Assembly (NCBI GenBank): GCA_948470475.1
Contig: OX419337.1
Span: forward strand, 36,476,536-36,540,535
Direction: 5' to 3'
DNA length: 64,000 bases
From: Galaxea fascicularis
Lineage: Eukaryota; Cnidaria; Anthozoa; Scleractinia; Euphylliidae
The translations under genes were made by a program, and so were the position numbers. Of this stretch, positions 7,586-27,800 are shown one piece after another; position 1 is the first letter of the stretch; the number at the start of each line of letters is the position of its first letter. Under the pieces are notes generated by a model. It saw nothing but the letters and a program-made list of their open reading frames with translations, searched no databases and was not told the origin of the DNA.

Positions 7586-9570
7586 CAAACGTCAGGGAAA
7601 GTTTAGCATTTAGGCGCAAGTAAAAAGTGAGTTGGGAAAAATCAAAATGATTTCTCTTTAGCAGTGAAATGTGCCGTACGTAGCTTCATCTTGTGAGCAT
7701 TCGAATACTCGAGTGTTGCCAGCATTCAAACTAGATTTCCTATGGTGCTGTTCAGCAGCTATTAAGGTGACTCTTGCTTTTGAGACAAAGGATGAAGTCC
7801 GAAACACTGTTTAACTAAACGTTCGCTGTACAAGATGGTTCTAAAAATTTCTGTGTGCAGATGTAATTCTTAATTAAGTGCCACTGTTAATCTTAAATCA
7901 ATAGAGCAATACCGTAGCTGTTACGTTGGTACTAGTGTGACCATGCACTCAGATGAACGCTAAGGAGGATTTTCTTGTCGTTTTGACTGAATCTGCATTT
8001 TGAACACTAAACCGAGCAGTACACTTACAGAATTGACTGCAGACGCAGCACTTAATGAGAACATTTGCGAAGGGTAACACCAGTATCCTTCTAAAAAAAA
8101 TACAAGAATACAAAGTTGGTGACTATTAAAAATGGCTACAATAAACATTAAGGCTAACTACAACTTCATTGCTACAATCACAGTACAACAAAGAGGTTTC
8201 TAGATTTAGCATACAATCGACTAAAAGCGCAAAAAATCTGCTACTGTTATACAAACTGATCACTACAAGCTTCACTTGAAAAGCTTAAAAGTCTTGCCGA
8301 TATATTTCTATATAATATGTACTTTGCCAAATGCAAATTATTTTATGAAAATAACTACTGAGCGTGCTCGGCGCGCTTGTATTTTTCATCACTTCGCCAG
8401 CATTCTCGTCTACAATCGTTTACGCTGCCACCACAAATTGGTGCAGGTTTGAAAAAGCTCCACTCGACTTAGACTTTTTCATCTCGCAGAGGTCTTCATG
8501 CCACATTAGTTTCAAGTAAAATGACAGTCTTGCTTTCTCATTCCTCATCAAATGCGAACCTTGATATTTTTCAGTGACAGCGGCGTGAGAGCTATGTGAT
8601 AAAGTGACCCAATGTGGCTATGCTTTGAATATAATGACTCGCTGATAAACACACAGAAAGCAAAGCTGGTGTCGACTGAATTTAACAATGAAATTTAAGT
8701 GTTTCACGACTCCTCAGACAGTGCTACATTTTAGTCACTCCCATTCACTGTATCTTGACTGTTTTGGCATCAAATGTGTGGTTAATATTTTCCCCACAAA
8801 ACTGGCTCAAAACTTGAATGAACTCTTTCCTCTAATAAATCCGTGACCTCTACAAGATGAAATGAAGAATAGCTGCGTGCTAAAACACCCCGACAACTAT
8901 TCAGATAATTTAACAATACAAGAAATGCTGACGAAATGTCTACTTAAGGTGGCAATGGCGGAAGCTATTTGCTGAAAACAGCATTTATAAGCCTATGTTA
9001 AACTTATCTCCAGATAAGTCCGGAATGTGATGAATATGCCTTCAAACGATCGGAAAAAAAACTATGAAGCACAACAAATATTGTCATGCTTAAAACATTT
9101 GTGGAAGCGAGATACACACTAATTACAATTGTTGCCATAGAAGTTCTGGCTTGAAGAGAAAGTATAATTAAAAAAATGTCGACTAGTTAAAAGGCTAGTT
9201 TCACTAGCCTGAACAAGGTTACTTTTTCTGTCTATCTATACAGGTTTTCTCCCAAATAACTAAATTGCTCGATAATTTGTCTTCTTGAACAAGTATAAGG
9301 CAACCCTAAATATCCAAAAAAACTTTAGCACAAACCACAATCTCTAAAATCCTGGTTATAAGTGTCCCTGTTTTTGAGACTCATCGCACTAATTAGGTAA
9401 CTTTTTTTTTATTTCAATCCTTCACTGATTCCAGCGAACACACTGTTCACACCTTTTCTTTTTATTTCTCGAGCCACGACCCAAACGAAAATAATATTTC
9501 TTTTCCTTACAATGACACCAAAAACATGTGTGGTTGGAGCAGGTCTTAAGTGCCTATAACCCCAAAATAT

Positions 9571-9926
9571 TTTTTTCGCTAACATGTATCTTTGCACCTG
9601 TTCGAAACGGATTGCGGCACTTTTTGTCCTTTTTTGTCCAAATCTTGACTTTTGTAGGCTTTGAAACAGAGCATCATTTGATTCACGACCGAGTCAGAAG
9701 AGGCGTGGGTCTATTCCTGATTTGACCTCACAAACTGGTTTGAATGCATGTTTACAAAGAGTTAATGCGATGCAAAGCAGTTTGTGACGTCAAATCAGGA
9801 ATAGACCCACTCCCTTTCTGACTCGGTCATGAATCAAATGATGCTCTGTTTTAAAGCCTGTGAAAAAAGGAAAAAAATGCCGCAATCTGTTTCCAACAGG
9901 TGCAAAGATGCATTTCAGCGAAAAAA
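9571..9926. mobile_element. Foldback (long inverted repeat) element, about 356 bp
   Basis: The left arm begins TTTTTTCGCT...ATCTTTGCACCTG and runs to about 9735. The right arm starts near 9776 and ends ...CAGGTGCAAAGAT...AGCGAAAAAA. The arms are about 150 bp, imperfect, and separated by a short central loop. Internal landmarks such as CAGGAATAGACCCAC and AATCAAATGATGCTCTGTTT appear in both orientations. It is non-coding. The arm divergence indicates an old insertion. It probably lies in the 3' UTR or flank of the bHLH-PAS gene. Confidence 0.85.
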
Positions 9927-16900: not shown

Positions 16901-19900
16901 TGATCATGCCGTTTCCACCTGCATCCAATATTTTGATGTGTCCCCAAGCAAAAACAATTTTCCAATAAAAAGGATCATTATTATTTTTTGCACTGTTAAG
17001 GTCATCATTCTTCATCAAAAGGCAGGGCTCAAAATAACGGCCAGTCAACAAACAATATCTGGCTAGAATGGCGACTTGACTGGCCAAAAACTTCAATCGC
17101 CGGTCATGTTGACAGGCCAGGTGCACGTACTGTCTTCAATAAACAGTGAAATCCCATGAATTGTAATTATATTAGATTTTGTCTCTTCGTAAACATAATA
17201 ATTACATTCACAAATGAAAAAGGATGATGGTTTAAGGCATGCTGTGCATTAAGCCACTGATGTTTTGGGTTAATAGGCCGCCATTAGTCAATTTCTTTTT
17301 TTTCAATATTTTGACCGGTCAGAAATGCAACATGACCAAGCTAAAATGTCTTCGGCCAGTCAACATGATCAGCTACTATCCAAAAATTAATTTTAGCCCT
17401 GAAAGCTACCTTTGAAAATACTGTAAACCTGATAGTGCCAGGACCCATGGTTAACTAAATAATTCTAACCTTGAAGCCTGAAGATTTGGTGTAGGCTCCA
17501 CCTCGCCGGACAAGAGTACACTTCATTCGAATAAAGAACGACTTTGGTTTTTCCTCCTCAGGACCATCTCCATTCATAAAAGCTGAAAACGTAAGACATA
17601 AGCAAACCAAATTAAAAACATTACATTTGTGATGCTCACACAAAACAGTAGCAGTTCCATGGCAAGATGGCCACAAGCCATGATTCTGCTATGGGCGAGT
17701 CTTTCTCGTAAGTTCTAACAGACATTCTGACAATTGATTAACTCAGCTCAAAGACTAACCACAGATCAATGTAAAATCTACAATACAGTTTGGTGGAAAA
17801 CGTGAACAAATTCACAATGTTTTACAACCAGCTGCTCAGTCAGTTCCAAGGGAATACATAAGAAATCATGTACATACAGTGTATGTATTTTGACTGGTGG
17901 AAGCATATAACCTATTTATTCATTTAGTGTAGGTAGTCCAAGCCTGCAAATAATTATTATTGTTGTCCATAAGCAGGTCAGAAATGCCTGGTCACAGTGT
18001 CCAACCTGGCTACGCTTTTGACGGTCAACATTTGTGACCTCTCACGCGAAAACGTCAACAAACGGGTTCCCGTTTGAAACGGAATTCCGTTCACAGGCCG
18101 TTTGTTGGCCGTTCGAACGGCTAGGGTCACCCGTTCGGGCAACTTAGGTATCCGTTCAGAAAAAGTCTTCATCCGTTCGAACGGCTTGCGTCAGCCGTTC
18201 AGAAAAAAATACCATCCGTTCGAACGGCTTGGGTCAGCCGTTCGGAAAAAGTCTCCACCCGTTCGAGTGCTTGGGTCACCCGTTCAGAAAAAATTACCAT
18301 CCGTTCGAACGGCTTGAGTCAGCCGTTCGGAAAAAATCACCATCCGTTCAAACGGCTTGGGTCAGCCGTTTGGAAAAAATCTTAATCAATTCGAACGGCA
18401 TCCGTTTGGAAAATTCTAGATCCATTCTAGTACTGAACTGCCTGGCAACAGGAGTTGAAAATGAATAGTCTGAGTATCGGGCTTTTCTCAGGACGGGTTA
18501 ATGTTCGGGTTAAAAATGAGCGGCAATTCTCTTTTGATCGATGAGGTTATTATTTTTCTTATTTTGAGGACACCCGTGTGTAAACACAATAATTACTCCG
18601 CGATAAGATCAGCTAACCCAGACAGAAATAATGATGCCCACGAATTCGTCAAGACACGCCAAGTCTTCAGAACTTCAAAACAGTCTTCCGTCTGACTACC
18701 TTTTTTAATTAATTAATCTCAAAACGCTGATCCTTTGCTTGTAAATGCCACGGTGATAATCCTTGATGATAATACACAACTTTTAGCGCACAGATCTGGC
18801 TGTTGCGTTACCTATCACGTGTTTCGAAGTGACGATGAGTGATAAAAATATCAGTAAACAAAAGTCTTGAATAATATTATTATTTGCACTCGCATTCGGT
18901 AAGAATCATCAGTCTCATTTTGTTTAAGCCTTTTGTTTAAGTTAATCCATTCTTTTAGGTCGCTTTTGCGCCTAGTTCAGAATTTTTGTTATACTGTCTG
19001 GATCACCGTTGAGTCAGAGACACCGAACATTCTTTTCACTCAGAACAGTAAAACGCAGATGAGATAATGTAGATTACACAGAACTCGTGCTGCATTCAAT
19101 CACCGAGGAAAAAGAGAGAGCATGGAGGTTTATAAAAAGCAAGATCAATTCGAAGTGTCGTGCTACCCGCAAATCTCTAGCGGACGAATTTTCTCCGGCT
19201 CGTTCATTGTAATATATTTCCTGTCACTTTTATGGCTCGAAGAAAAATACTCTGTTTAATATAATTTTGTATCTCTTCTTGTTTATTTATTATTAAAATA
19301 GTTAATACATTGTTTATTCTGTAGTTGTTACTATTATTGTATCAGTATGAACTGCCTGGTCTCACCCGCGAGACAGTTCATAATATGGGTAAGGAAGTTA
19401 CCTTTCGGGAAAAGAAATTCCCTGAAAAAGCTTTACTTTCCGTCGACTGGCAGACGAATTTTTACCTAGTCGTTTTATACATCGAACGAAATAGTTACCA
19501 GTAGTTTGCGTTCGCACTGTGAATCATCTGTACTCATCTATTAAAAGCAAAGTGGCGCCGTTCAGTGGAGCAATCGCCATGCTAAAACGTAAATGTAATT
19601 TATGCATTTGATTCAATGCGTCTGAAGTGCGACGTCTAAAACCAACATGCATTTCACACGTTTTATCTGTGTGGGGCACGCGGATAAAACGTCTGGACGA
19701 ATTTAATTATTAGTTTCGTTTTATACGTTGCTCTACAGACGAATGTAATCGCTAATTAAATTCGTGTCAATTATATTCGTCCGTACTGCGACATATAAAC
19801 CAGGCCTAAGTAATTGGCGTGACACGAACATGAATGAATAAAGGGGTTTATTTAGTTCTTAGTTCTACTGGCATAAATGCTCAATCTCTTACAGGAACCC

Positions 19901-22900
19901 TAACTGAAAAGAACAAAGAAAAAACTGAAATACTTCACCGAAGTTATTTACTGTTAAGACCTTGACAACAGCGCAGTTCGGACTCTGGAAGTCTGGCGAA
20001 CTAACTACTCGGCCATCACTTGGTTAAATATGACGTCATAATCATAAAAATAACAGTCATAGCATAACAGTCATAAATTCATAACAGTCACAGTCGAATG
20101 CTCGAGCTACAGGATTTCTCACGGGGCTGGAGCAACCAGATCTTCCGTTCCAGGCTTGCAGAACTGACGAATCTCGCGATACAGGTACTGCTTCCGCTCT
20201 TGAGATAATCCTTCAGGATTGAGCTTGGATGGAAGTTCGTAGGGTGGCAGGATCGCGGGATTCTTAAGCAGCTGCGTAGATTGTTCAGGTGATGTGCTGT
20301 ACTGTCTGAAATAAAGTTTTCCAGGTTCGTCTTTCGAAAATCGGAAATGATGGAACTTTTTTATGTTGGGAAGCTTGGTAAAATAATGTTCCAGGAACGC
20401 TGACCAATTATACACCAGCACGATAACCTTTCCATCGTGCGTCCCAACAAGCTGGACTTTGTTGACTCCAACAGTGCTAGATGATTCCACCATCTGGGCA
20501 AATTCATACAGAGAAGAAACGTAGGTAACTTTGTACAATCTCTTGACCATTCCAAAGCAGCGATCCGGGCCAAACTTTGTATGTCCAGCAATTAAAAAAG
20601 AGTAACTGATTGAGTCATGAAGTTGAACAATAGTTCTCCAAGCCAGGTACCAAAGGAAATAGTTGTTCTTATTCTGCCCCGAGCAGTTATCGGCATGAAG
20701 ATGGACACGAGTCTCACCCAGTCCATGGTTCTCCAAATAGTGGTGAACGAAACTTATTGTTGTGTTGGCCCCTTTGCCAACTTCGCTTGCCTCGTCGATT
20801 AAATAGTTCACTTGTCTGGGGATCGCTTCGCACATGACGCCGAAGATTCCGCATTTGCGTGGTGTTTTAAAGTATATTGGTCCGGGCTGCATCGGGTTAC
20901 AAGGAATGTGAACTTGTTGCGCAAAGTCAAATGAATAATGTATGGTTGTATCAAGGGAACATGCATCATGCTGTTCATCCAAGTCGATTGTGTCTTCAAA
21001 TTTTTCAAAGTTCCTTTTTGACTCTTCACAAGCGTTCCTGTAGACATCTCTCTCTGTTTGTGCACAGTTTAAATGTTCTTGTTGAGCCAGGACGGACTCA
21101 GCCTTTTCGCTGTCGGGAAGGTTCGCAGATCGAAGAAGTTTCGATGTGTTCTGTTGGCATGTTAGACACAGGTCGGTCATAGGCTTGGCGACAACAACAT
21201 TCGGGTAAAACTGCTCCCAAAATTTTATAAATGTTGTATAGCAAACAGCTTGCTTGTCTGTATCTTCACATGCTCTTTTAAACGCGCGCCACACGCTCAT
21301 TTTTGTGTCCGACGATGGTAGCAGACTAATGTCATCTTTTTTAAAACCTGGGATTCTGCCGGGAAGTAGGACAGCATTTTCTTCAACATAGTTACTTAAG
21401 AAATTCTTAACGTCCTCCGCCACGGCTTGCGGTAACGTGTTGTGTGGAAGTTTCCTGCTGTTTCCATGTACCCTTAGAGAAATCCCGTGTTCTTCGTAGT
21501 GATCTTTTAATCTCCGAAAGCGTGAATAGCTGATGCCGTACATGTTAAAAAACATTTCCTTGCAGATCGGGCGGGATTGATAAAGGAAACTGTATGGCGC
21601 GCTTCGACTTCTTTTTTGGCCAATAAAATCGATGCTCGTGAATGCTTGTATGTTCACCAGTATGACAAGATCGAGTTCTCCGTGGGAAAGTTCCAGGCAA
21701 TTACTTAAATTAGACAGCACGGCTTCCTCCGAAAATTGCTGAGAACACTGGCCACCGTTTCGACCTTGAGAACACCCGCATCCATCTTGTAGAAACTTCT
21801 TAACTTTAGCTACAATTTTCTCACTCTCAAGGACATCAGTCTGATCACATTCCGCCATTTTAAAGGTCTCCAACGAATTTAACACGCGAGTACGTGTAGC
21901 AAGGAAAGCTAGTGCAGTTGCTAAGACAACGCGCCCTTCTGTCCAGATTGGCTCAGGTATTGGCTGTTGTTGCGTTACCTGTCACGTGCTTTGCAACTCG
22001 TATGCAAATTTTTGGCAAGTGAGCAAAAACACAAGCGTTCGGGCCAGGATAATGATTATTTGACCTTAATGGTTTCGTTTCCTTTGCATTCCGGAGAGAA
22101 CCACTTCATTCTGTTCAAGGTTAATTTAATCGCTTGTCTTAGACCGCTTTAATAACCGGTTCGAAGTTTTGCGTTCACACTGTGTACTTGAGTCGTTCAC
22201 CCGTTCATGACCATCCGTTCGAAATTTTCAATGAGCCGTTCAGCTTCTCAGGGCCACCCGTTCGAAATCTTTTAATCACCCGTTCAGCGTTCATAGCTAT
22301 CCGTTCGTAATTTTTAATGAGCCGTTCGACAGCTCAAGACAAGCCGTTCGAAATTTTTCATCAGCCGTTCGGCGCTCAGAGCTACCCGTTCGGAATTTTT
22401 AATTAGCCGTTCAACCGCTCATGACCAGCCGTTCAAAATTTTTCATCAGCCGTTCGGCGTTCGAAGCTACCCGTTCGAAATTTTCAGCGAGCCGTTCGGC
22501 GTTCAGTCTCACCCGTTTCAAACGGGTTGACCACCCGTTTCTTAGCCGTTCGATAGCCGTGCGTTTCACCCGTTCGATGAAACCCGTTTGTTGACGTTTT
22601 CGCGTGAGAGGTCACATTTGTCTGATGGCTGACCTTTATTTGCAGGCTTGGTAGTCATTTTTACACTGGGCTGTAACAAACAGAGTTCACAACCTAAACA
22701 TTATGAACACGCCTCTTCACAGATGGCTATTTAATATATTTTTCTAAAGTACAGTATGCAACTTCTACCTACCCAAGTTACATAATTATACAATTTACAT
22801 TCATTAGAAAGTGAGCCTCAATATTCTCAAATCAGCTCTATTAATGGTACACTGTATCAGTGTTCATGATTTAAAGAAATTTTTCTAACAGTGTATTAAT

Positions 22901-24772
22901 GACTGTGAATGTGCTTGAGCAACTTTGTTTTTAATTGGTAATATTGGAGATAAAAACTTACCTTGCTGATTTCCAAAGAAAGGAATATTGTCAGTGAATG
23001 TGCTAGCAGCGGGCTGATTACTGGGGTTTTCAATTTCCTCCTTAGCAGCCTCCAGCACATTGAAAAGGTCTTGATGGTCCTCAGGGTGAATGTAACATGT
23101 TATGTTACTTCCTGTTAACTCCACCTAGATAAATAGAGATATAAATTATTTGCCACTGCTGTGGAAAGAGTAACTGGTCAAATCACATTTTTTCTTTACC
23201 GCAGATTGTAGATGCAGGCTAGTTACAACATCTTTTGTAAGCTCAACGCTTCCTTGTTATAATCAACAAGTCACAATCTATCGAGTATTAGTATTTGGCC
23301 AGAAGCTAACTTGCCTCAAAGCAATACAGTAAACTAGAAGTTTAATGAAAACAGTGCATGCCCACTATCATCTGGCAACTCAGTCTGTTTACATTAATTT
23401 TTACTTATTATTAACTTTTATGTTATCTTATGCATATAGGCAACTAAAATGTGCAGGACGCTACCAACAAAACATGTACTGGTTATCCTGGGCATTTATG
23501 GCATCTGATGAACTGTCTGACTGCTTGATACACACCTGTGACAATCCAAGATGATTGGATACCGTCTCTGACACATACAAGACCTTTCCGTCACTGGACA
23601 GGACAAACAAAAAGCCATCTAAAGCCTTCAGAGAGGAAATCAAACAAATATTCAGTGATCAAAACTGTTATTTAATTGTACCATCCTGAGACCATGTTTT
23701 CACGGAGATACAGGTACCAAAGGTTGATTCTTCAGAAAGTGGTGTTTCCTAACTTCAGATTCTGTAGACTATCACTTGCACTGTATATGTGACCATTCAC
23801 TTGAAAAGATGAGCCATCCTACCATAGCAATGATTCTTGTGGGACAAGGCAGTTCAAAATTTTCATCACTAACAATAAACAAGCATTGCATGGAATCTTT
23901 AAACTGACCTGCAGCAGAAATATGCCACTGTTATCAGCAAGTTCCTGGAGAGTTATGTCACTTTGACTGTAAGGAACAACTGCACCTATCAATAAGAGAT
24001 TTCATACATCTTCAAAACAGACCACAAAATCATAACCAACCATACTCACAAGAGTTTTCACCAGCACAGACCACGTGACATGGAGCGGATGTTTCAAAGC
24101 CATTTCAAAAGATGTCTGGGATCAGTATGAGTGACACTCAAACAAGGAAAACTTAATTTGCGATTGAATGATAAACAGGAGTGAGTGACAAGAATCTTAA
24201 TGGTAAGGAATTTGCATGCAGTTGGCGTTTCATGTGATGTACATGATATCTGAAGCACAACAGCACCTCTTGCATCCAGTCAATATCACCTCAAACAATC
24301 CTCAAGCTTACACCCTTGAAACAGCATGATTGTACAGATGATGATGACTCTACTTCACCTGGTTACGATATGACTCCTGGGTTCAAACCATTTACAACAG
24401 TTTATTTACTTGTTATTTCTTGATACATGCACATAATATATGTCTGAAGAAATAAAATTACACAGACTACACATGGCTTCAGTTGACATAAACTACTGCC
24501 TGTTTTGCCTCACCTGTAGAAGTACTGGCACCCACTGTTGGTGATGAAACAGAGGAATGAGGTGACAGACTCCCTGGACTTCCAAAATGATTATCTGCAA
24601 AAACAAGGTAGAGTCAAGAAAATTTAAGGTTTGCAGGCAGTTTTGATTCTAAATTAAACTTGGTATACTGTACATGTATGTTGTACAGGAACTTTGTTGA
24701 TTGAAGAAATAGGAGCCCTAGGATTCTAAATAGGTGGGTACCACTGAGACATTTCTTTAGTTTGCTCTTTAC

Positions 24773-24803
<31 letters not shown>

Positions 24804-27800
24804 TTTAATATTTCTATAGCACTTTTTACAATAAAAGATCAAAAGCGCTTTATAAAAAAAGGCAAAAAAGGCAGGTATTGTGTTCAGGGGATATGGATGC
24901 TCTTACCTGGGTCCAGGGTCCCGTTTCTCAAAAGTCCCATAAACTTTTCGGGCCCGAAAAGCCATTTCAAAATCGGTTATTCTAAAAAGCTGGTCTTTTA
25001 CTATGATTTCAAGAAACAAAAGGGCAAATTTGTTGCAAAATTTCATGCCTGTAAAGGTCTTCATTTTTAAGAGTATGAAGGAAATTATGACACCCCAAAT
25101 GCACCCCGAAAGTTTCAGGAATTTCAAGAAACGCACACCTGGCCTCTAACAACCACCTAATACTGTCAGTGGGTTTTTTTGTTTAAATTACCAATAAATT
25201 GTTCAAACCAGTTTAACCTGTTTGCTCTTAAAGGTATCAGTGATAAACGTTCCACAAAGAGAAAATGGAAACTAAACTGGATTTAAAATTCACAAATAAT
25301 TTGAACCAGTCAGTCAGAGCAATATTTATCTATCAGTGGTTCAAAAAATTAATTTTATAATTGTTATTGACGATTACTGAGTAATGAAAAAATTTTGATT
25401 AACGGCATTTGCAGCTAACAAAGTTAATAAGAACCAGATCTTGAATTCTCTGGCCCAATATCCAGACTCAACCATATGCTCCTTCAAAAGGCCATAAAAT
25501 GTGACATTCCTTTTACTTACCAATATCCACATCAGATGGGGGTGAGGCTGATGATTCTGACAGAAATGAGCAGTCTGAAGGTTGGCGAAACCGTTTAACT
25601 GATGAAATACAATGTGAAAATAGTAGATGCTGGCTTACGGTTTCAATGGTATGCTTTATTCCTACAATGTAATATGCAGAATCTACACATACACAAATCA
25701 TGGGGTTGGTTGCCGGGAAGAGAAAAGGAAAATTTTTGTTTTTTCTTTTGCAGAGAGTATTTTCAATAGAATCATTTCAACCTGAAGCTGAATAGCTGCT
25801 GGACAATTACATTTGGTGGGTACACTGTTACAAACACACCAAACAAAAAGATGACTCAGAATTCTTATAAGATTATAGACACCAATGAAGTGGCTAAAAG
25901 GCAAATACCCTGATACTCCTATTTCCAAAGAACTAAAAAAAGCAAGGGATTTGAAGTGTTAAAGTAATATTAAATGGACTTGAGTCGTGTCTGTGTTAAT
26001 CCTATGTTGTAATTTAACATTTAAGTGTAAGCCCCCCCATGATGAGCTTACTTAGCGCTTGGGGTGAACATGTAATGGTGATGCAATTTTTTCTAGAATT
26101 GTTGCGTCACCAGCACATGGTGGTGGCTATTTGAGTGACAAAGTCTGTGATTTTGTTGCGAAAAGTTCAACTCCTGGAATTTCTTGCCATTTTTTAGCTG
26201 TCACCATTGCAGCACTTGAGAGGGTAGCTACATGTGTAATTTTCACCACACAGTGGCGACACGACCAATTTAGAAAAAATCAGATCACCATCGCAAGCAA
26301 AAAATTGCTTGTGTAGCCCCGGCTTAAATGCATACCTATTTTGGGAAGATTAAACTGCTTCATATTCAAGTAGCTGATTGTCAATCGGACAATCGATGCC
26401 TTGTCCAGCTGCGATGTAATGGCACTTGGTAAAGGAAGAAGTTTTGCCAGTTCATCAAACTGGGCATTTTCTTTGCCACGTCTGCTTCTGGCTGCATCTC
26501 GAGATCTCTCTTTACGAAGTTCTACAGTTCTGAAGAAAAGAAATAACACATTAAGACTTATTAATTAACTGGCTAAGTACAGTGTGGTTAGCAATAGTCT
26601 TCAATGCAAAGTGTTGTTTAATAGCACTTCAAAAAGTCATTAATAATACATAAAGGAAATACAAAAGAAATTAACGTTTAACGAGCCTCTTCATATCTGA
26701 TATAGACATGGCTAGACACAGCTAAATTTACAGCCGACTCAATCCGGTATTTAAAATAACAATAAACCTGATGATTATTCTACAAATGAATAGATCTACC
26801 ACAAACGTTTTTTTTTGAAGCTGTTCAAAAAAACTTGCTAACATGTTTTATCCAGTATAATAAACACTCAGCAAGGCCTTGTGCTTTTAAACCCAATAAA
26901 ACACTGCTGCTTGTTTTTTAAACATGACTTAATTTTCAAGAGGGAGTGCAGGGCATATGCGACTGCATGGCACGTGTACTCAGCGCAACAACACATGCAC
27001 AGCTTCTCCACAGTGGCATCTGAAAGTGCTATTGTGAACCCTGAAAAGGATCCAAATGCAGTGACTACAGTGCAACGAAACTGTTTGGATGAAGACAGCA
27101 TCTCATCATACTCTCTGGGGAAGATGAATTCAAACTGCAGCAGTTTTTAAGAGCAGCTACAGTGTATGTTCAGCACCCACAATTTAACATGTTTCTTCAG
27201 CAGCAGGGAGATAATGCAGCAAACAGTATGTCAGCAATGACCGTTGGTAAAAAATGTGCAATTTTATATTATTATTATTATCATCAGCGGTTTCAATAAC
27301 ATTTGGAGTAGGCAGCTGGTTGGAGAAAAGTAACCGACTTTTCTTTAATTTAATTTCAAAGAATCTTTCTTTAATTACTTAAATTTAGGGGAAAGAGTAG
27401 CTGACTTCTCTGAGCGAAGTAGCCAACGCTTTTCGTCGGCCGTCGGTGCTTGTTGAAAGCACTGTATCAGCAACCATTCAGCAACCATGCAGGTGTACGA
27501 CTGCACACATGTATAATAATTATAATTATTAATAGCACTCGTGGCAGGCAGGGGTTTTGTTAGAAGCCAACAACCGGTGAAAACCATCACCTACTTTGTC
27601 AGAATTAACCTCTCAGTACTGCCTACTTTGTCTAGATTTTCACTCAAATGATTAAAAAAAAGTTGATCACATCACCACGGTGCCTACTTTAAATAGCTTA
27701 GACTACTATTTAACCTTTAACGACCGAGAGTGCCATATGGCACAAGATGCCATTACATGTTCAATATTAATTTTTATCAATTTTTAAGAAATTTTCACAA

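Follow-up and report, generated by a model that had tools for sequence, protein, structure and literature searches.

A DUF7869-encoding DNA transposon of the coral Galaxea fascicularis and its relatives in insertion-sequence-like bacterial elements

Results

We analysed a stretch of 64,000 nucleotides from the coral Galaxea fascicularis (GenBank assembly GCA_948470475.1, contig OX419337.1, positions 36,476,536 to 36,540,535 of the forward strand), called the window below, in which an element of about 4.58 kb occupies positions 18035 to 22614. The initial annotation of a complete DNA transposon at this place is borne out by the matching ends, the duplication of the target and a single intact gene that is transposase-like, and the element is apparently autonomous. 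Its features, in window coordinates, are as follows (TIR, terminal inverted repeat; TSD, target-site duplication; rms, root-mean-square).

18035..22614, minus (strand of its gene): whole element; 18036-22613 under the 8-bp TSD reading
18029..18034: left target duplication CATTTG; 8-bp alternative ACATTTGT at 18028-18035
22615..22620: right target duplication CATTTG; 8-bp alternative ACATTTGT at 22614-22621
18035..18068, plus: left TIR, 34 bp, perfect, with AAAACGT at its positions 15-21
22581..22614, minus: right TIR, 34 bp, perfect
18087..18371, plus: left subterminal array of 14 CCGTTY motifs, period 21.39 bp, rms residual 0.37 bp
22215..22540, plus: right subterminal array of 16 consecutive CCGTTY motifs, period 21.30 bp, rms residual 0.43 bp
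20119..21858, minus: transposase gene, 579 aa from ATG; Pfam PF25273 (DUF7869), predicted RNase-H fold, three invariant Asp
20926..20928, minus: codon of putative catalytic D320 (588-aa numbering), Asp in 207 of 207 aligned sequences
20689..20691, minus: codon of putative catalytic D399, Asp in 206 of 207
20563..20565, minus: codon of putative catalytic D441, Asp in 207 of 207
18450..20118, no strand: about 1.7 kb between the left array and the stop codon, with no coding frame of note

The two 34-bp ends match exactly, as first annotated, and when the window was searched with the first 20 bases of the TIR, allowing up to 3 mismatches, only the two element ends were returned (chance expectation 0.00). 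We examined the duplication by trying repeat lengths of 4 to 11 bp with the ends shifted inward by 0 to 3 bases, and for this single copy obtained two solutions: a 6-bp repeat CATTTG with element ends TGACC..GGTCA or, equally, an 8-bp repeat ACATTTGT with ends GACC..GGTC. For random pairs of points in the window, with the same four offsets allowed, the frequency of direct repeats 8 bp long or longer was 0.00027 (200,000 trials). The 6-bp TSD proposed initially is indeed found on both sides, but the 8-bp repeat fits just as well, and one copy leaves the TSD length at 6 or 8 bp equally.

The single frame of 588 codons (20119-21885, minus strand) is open throughout, as had been claimed, and begins with GTG at 21885. 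In the alignment one relative, P0010, begins at an ATG that corresponds to codon 10 of this frame, so the window protein is likely to have 579 residues. It falls in the Pfam family DUF7869 (PF25273) with E 1.5e-19 and 70.8 bits against a curated cut-off of 26, and the same family is matched by 15 of 15 members of our set A2 (E ≤ 0.1). At E ≤ 1 Pfam reported three further families for the window protein, Bfc, HTH_28 and HTH_29, all sub-threshold and non-catalytic, so that a described catalytic transposase model is absent from the four. An ISAzo13 DDE model was matched weakly by 1 of the 15 members (E 0.0019). NCBIfam gave one sub-threshold match for the window protein, to an ISNCY model over residues 117-165 (E 7.3e-4, 18.8 bits against 250), and no match of note for the proteins of the bacterial loci L001 and L005 described below; a sequence search of the PDB returned a sole match at E 0.82, and PHROGs nothing below E 0.1. 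The Pfam entry calls DUF7869 a domain of unknown function, its shown name and description make no mention of a transposase, literature text searches for DUF7869, PF25273 and three motif strings found no paper, and among the titles listed in wider searches of the literature none names the family.

Conservation and predicted structure together suggest that the window protein is a DDD transposase of the RNase-H type. The triad is spaced D320-78-D399-41-D441, the 41-residue gap being invariant in 207 of 207 sequences, and in the predicted structure, whose fold matches are moderate, the three invariant acidic residues are placed as in the RNase-H topology. The first five Foldseek matches come from Tn7-like/CAST (CRISPR-associated transposon) complexes; Mos1 is also among the structural neighbours, and the predicted fold is integrase-like. 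Along the protein we find N-terminal conserved cysteines with a possible helix-turn-helix, a second cysteine motif, DLCxTC, and then the predicted RNase-H domain.

Inside each TIR lies a regular series of CCGTTY motifs, and the two arrays share one orientation despite the inversion of the TIRs. The periods listed above refer to the regular series, from which off-series copies were excluded (18070, 18098 and 18402 on the left; 22201, 22546, 22570 and 22584 on the right); the extra motif at 18098 sits between the first two of the left array. The left array also holds the palindrome CCGTTCGAACGG five times, once with a single mismatch and otherwise exactly. In the direction of the arrays the 4.6-kb element has 40 copies of CCGTTY and the remaining 59 kb of the window have 27; in the opposite direction the counts are 9 and 20. 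A period of 21.3-21.4 bp amounts to two turns of B-DNA, and from this we infer that the motifs are candidate transposase-binding sites, which would form a row on one face of the helix. In the remaining interior, stop-to-stop frames contained entirely in 18450-20118 reach at most 73 aa, and no long frame that could be a second gene was found in 18035-20118.

A search of 5.8 billion proteins returned 1212 relatives at E ≤ 1e-3. Among the best 120 of these (P0001-P0120, all treated as animal, with an organism name on only 7), the named ones come from Montipora capricornis (twice), M. foliosa, Acropora cervicornis, A. palmata, Stylophora pistillata and Oculina patagonica, all of which we take to be stony corals. 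P0001 is 85% identical over 99% of the window protein. P0050 is 96% identical over 68% and has an unrelated-looking tail; it is probably a truncated or mispredicted copy. The host assembly comprises 416.6 Mb in 170 contigs. We found no second copy of the element in the 210 kb sampled.

Homologues also occur in bacteria. Scanning one genome per species (84,980 bacteria and archaea), we found 14 loci with DUF7869 homologues, in Desulfocicer vacuolatum DSM 3385, Desulfobacterales, other Deltaproteobacteria, Thiomargarita, Legionellales, Nitrospirales, Verrucomicrobia, Anaerolineales and a sponge-symbiont metagenome-assembled genome (MAG; two loci). The proteins of loci L001-L008 align with the coral protein over nearly its full length at 33-36% identity (best segment), that of L009 over residues 92-572, and those of L010-L014 only partially (L012 only over 316-588, at 29%). 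Around the gene in 7 of the 14 loci (L001-L005, L009 and L012) we see TIRs of 36-61 bp, bracketing elements of 2046-2717 bp; in the other seven (L006, L007, L008, L010, L011, L013 and L014, of which L008 and L014 begin near a contig end) no TIRs were found. All 14 bacterial ends start with TGG (13 with TGGG, one with TGGC) and carry AAAA at positions 17-20, and the coral TIR starts with TGACC and carries AAAA at 15-18, a likeness that is suggestive only. By eye, none of the seven TIR-bearing elements has a clear TSD; for L004, shifting the ends outward gives a possible 3-bp duplication, ATG. At a distance of 3 bp beyond TGG there is an A at 14 of 14 ends, so the bacterial ends may be misplaced or the target A/T-biased.

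The element at L001, in D. vacuolatum, spans 7763-9886 of its locus and has 43-bp perfect TIRs around the DUF7869 gene. The start of this element falls within the last part of an rve-type transposase frame, the remainder of which, judged by eye, does not continue on the far side. When four genomes were searched for a second copy of the left flank of L001, the locus itself was the sole match, apart from an inverted piece of 52 bases that lies inside it. With the L001 protein we obtained 551 relatives among 7996 candidates scored; among the 120 listed none is named a transposase (they are called 'hypothetical protein', in one case 'chaperonin', and are mostly unnamed), and many come from contigs about 2.0-2.3 kb long, as would be expected of repeated elements of that size. 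The seven TIR-bracketed loci, with TGG..CCA ends though no clear TSD, look like an undescribed insertion-sequence (IS) family of about 2.1 kb.

This bacterial family is thinly spread. We surveyed the phylum and the order of two of the host genomes, G001 and G003, the four surveys overlapping and the seed genomes being counted. Matches were found in 1 of 297 genomes of the phylum of G001 and, by Pfam family, in 1 of 398 of the phylum of G003 (controls 0 of 14), in both cases only in the genome on which the survey was centred; in 11 of 389 genomes of the order of G001, with G001, G002 and G005 included and at least 5 being fragments only; and in 2 of 42 of the order of G003, G003 included. At four of 13 loci TIRs were assessed: they were seen again at L019, a genome copy of L004, and at L053, apparently a genome copy of L012, and none were found around L044 and L046. 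Scans of IMG/VR with coral, bacterial and mixed alignments gave 10, 68 and 22 pattern matches and among them no relative; the exact coral TIR had 0 matches in IMG/VR, and plasmid and phage searches had none.

At L009 (203-2921) the TIRs are 61 bp long and 95% complementary, and the left arm also pairs internally (210-263 with 2441-2494, 76%). In the order of G001 there are distant homologues, L046 and L045, with 29% and 33% identity to L001; the open frame of L046 (1318-3297) is 659 aa long.

Our tree comprises 207 sequences, namely the window protein, 9 of the loci and 197 of 240 proteins found (43 of at most 540 aa were dropped), over 557 columns with a midpoint root. L010, and then L007 with L009, stand next to the coral-like clade. 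Since there is no outgroup the root is arbitrary, and we claim no direction of transfer.

Discussion

Our analysis indicates that the element is very probably an autonomous cut-and-paste transposon of the DUF7869 family, related to bacterial IS-like elements, and we hold to this judgement of the transposon and of the bacterial link whether or not the group is already in Repbase. The membership in DUF7869, with its 1212 relatives, and the bacterial relatives inside IS-like elements go beyond the initial annotation. The surprise lies here rather than in the TSD: the large family that includes this enzyme has no known function and is found in bacterial IS-like elements as well. The coral and bacterial elements share a homologous transposase, 5'-TG...CA-3' ends and an AAAA block. 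They differ in that the bacterial ones are small (2046-2717 bp), have TGG ends and show no clear TSD, whereas the coral element is 4.6 kb long and has a 6- or 8-bp duplication. The phased subterminal arrays are described here for the coral element.

How would such an element move? We propose that the one gene it carries specifies a DUF7869-type DDD transposase, which would bind the TIRs and the CCGTTY arrays, phased at 21.3 bp so that all sites would lie on one face of the helix, and would bring the two element ends together. Excision would follow by metal-dependent DDD chemistry; the element would then be joined to staggered target strands, and repair of the gaps would leave the 6- or 8-bp duplication. 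Tn7, at both ends, and Mu have transposase-binding sites of about 22 bp, Tn7 only a handful. The resemblance of the window protein to the TnsB of Tn7/CAST is one of predicted structure, and unlike Tn7 the coral element has 14 + 16 phased motifs and a single gene.

A bolder proposal, whose chances we put just short of even, is that DUF7869 constitutes a new transposase superfamily, comprising coral cut-and-paste transposons and a bacterial IS family, with transfer between the domains of life and, in corals, 21.3-bp phased arrays of 14-16 sites. It may be that a kind of jumping gene common to animals and bacteria has been overlooked. If so, a family now labelled 'unknown function' or 'hypothetical protein' would become a transposase family, the annotation of coral genomes would gain a transposon superfamily, and there would be a further case of an enzyme common to a bacterial insertion sequence and a eukaryotic transposon, in addition to IS481EU, Merlin/IS1016 and Zator/ISAzo13 (as given in PMC10045372). 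Moreover, the phased arrays offer a testable model for an integrase-like transposase that uses many sites on one DNA face, and an intact copy with perfect ends is natural starting material for a mobility assay.

The most serious alternative, doubtful but quite possible, is that the same transposon belongs to a superfamily already in Repbase, such as Novosib or another group described only there. Novosib elements have an 8-bp TSD, a length that fits the present duplication equally, and DUF7869 relatives are common in coral genomes; Novosib itself appears in Repbase's 2015 superfamily list. Against this, nothing positive ties the element to Novosib, of which no sequence was compared. The initial annotation had found no fit to the common superfamilies, and in so far as the described ones can be tested they do fail; however, if the TSD is 8 bp, then hAT, P and Zisupton, like Novosib, are again candidates by this character. 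A usual criterion for hAT is an 8-bp TSD, and the element has 6 or 8 bp; hAT elements with 5-7 bp also exist. A C/DxxH motif between the second D and the last acidic residue would mark hAT, P, MuDR and Kolobok. For Zisupton/KDZ, whose TSD is 8 bp against 6 or 8 bp here, no KDZ model is among the four Pfam families reported at E ≤ 1, the content of Pfam for KDZ being unchecked. GingerRoot, hAT, P, Zisupton and above all Novosib may yet accommodate the element, so that a hitherto undescribed superfamily is a reasonable working claim, short of proof.

Assigning the element, as a divergent member, to one of the DDE superfamilies already described (hAT, P, MuDR, Kolobok, Dada, IS3EU/GingerRoot, ISAzo13/Zator or ISNCY) is unlikely to be correct. 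A TSD of 6 or 8 bp does overlap several of these, and the weak ISAzo13 and ISNCY matches point the same way; yet the window protein at E ≤ 1 matches DUF7869 and otherwise only the three sub-threshold, non-catalytic models, and the 41-residue spacing is constant in all 207 sequences. IS3EU and GingerRoot share with the coral element an integrase-like DDE fold, predicted here, and, on one of its two readings, a 6-bp TSD. According to PMC10045372, IS3EU has a 6-bp TSD and TA..TA ends; in fungi its ends are TAYGG..CCRTA. We reject it, comparing by description, on the ends TGACC..GGTCA or GACC..GGTC found here. GingerRoot is given in PMC10045372 a 6-bp TSD and ends that are mostly TA..TA but occasionally TG..CA; by description such ends would be permitted, with a TSD here of 6 or 8 bp, and no link from DUF7869 to IS3EU/GingerRoot was found. 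Dada resembles the coral element in its 6-7-bp TSD and animal hosts, but it has no TIRs, targets small RNA genes and has a much larger transposase (1402 aa in the example) of the DDE type with DxxH; the 34-bp TIR rejects it. Two familiar groups are rejected by their duplications, TTAA for piggyBac and TA for Tc1/mariner against CATTTG or ACATTTGT here, the latter although Mos1 is among the structural neighbours.

Could the copy be dead, or domesticated, and merely retained in an intron? The initial annotation called the element recent and perhaps mobile from its intact ends and frame alone, and both labels may be apt. That no second copy turned up in the 210 kb sampled is in keeping with a dead copy, but we consider this improbable: perfect TIRs, an exact duplication and an intact frame are marks of recent insertion, and there are relatives as close as P0001 and P0050. 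Finally, that no bacterial IS family exists, the bacterial loci representing contamination or eukaryotic DNA wrongly binned, is very improbable indeed, for although 9 of the 14 record titles begin with MAG and L010, from the sponge symbiont, adjoins the animal clade and is followed by sequence that by eye is repeat-rich and non-bacterial-looking (at least this locus may be sponge DNA), contamination as the whole bacterial story is rejected by the sequence context of L001, which belongs to a genome record of D. vacuolatum DSM 3385, sits on a contig of 148 kb and has a TIR that overlaps the rve-type frame at its end, and of L005, on a 48-kb contig of which the 17.8 kb seen have frames that look bacterial by eye, and is opposed as well by the 11 matches in the order of G001 (at least 5 of them fragments only) and by bacterial ends that are compact and different from the coral ones.

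As to the genomic setting of the coral element, the minus-strand frames near it include a basic helix-loop-helix (bHLH)-like one at 26283-26564 and PAS-like ones at 23464-23658 and 22888-23124, recognised by eye. We presume these frames, within 22888-26564, to be exons of a bHLH-PAS gene of the NPAS/trachealess type. The element lies downstream of them in the same orientation, which makes its location within the PAS-A intron of this gene plausible.

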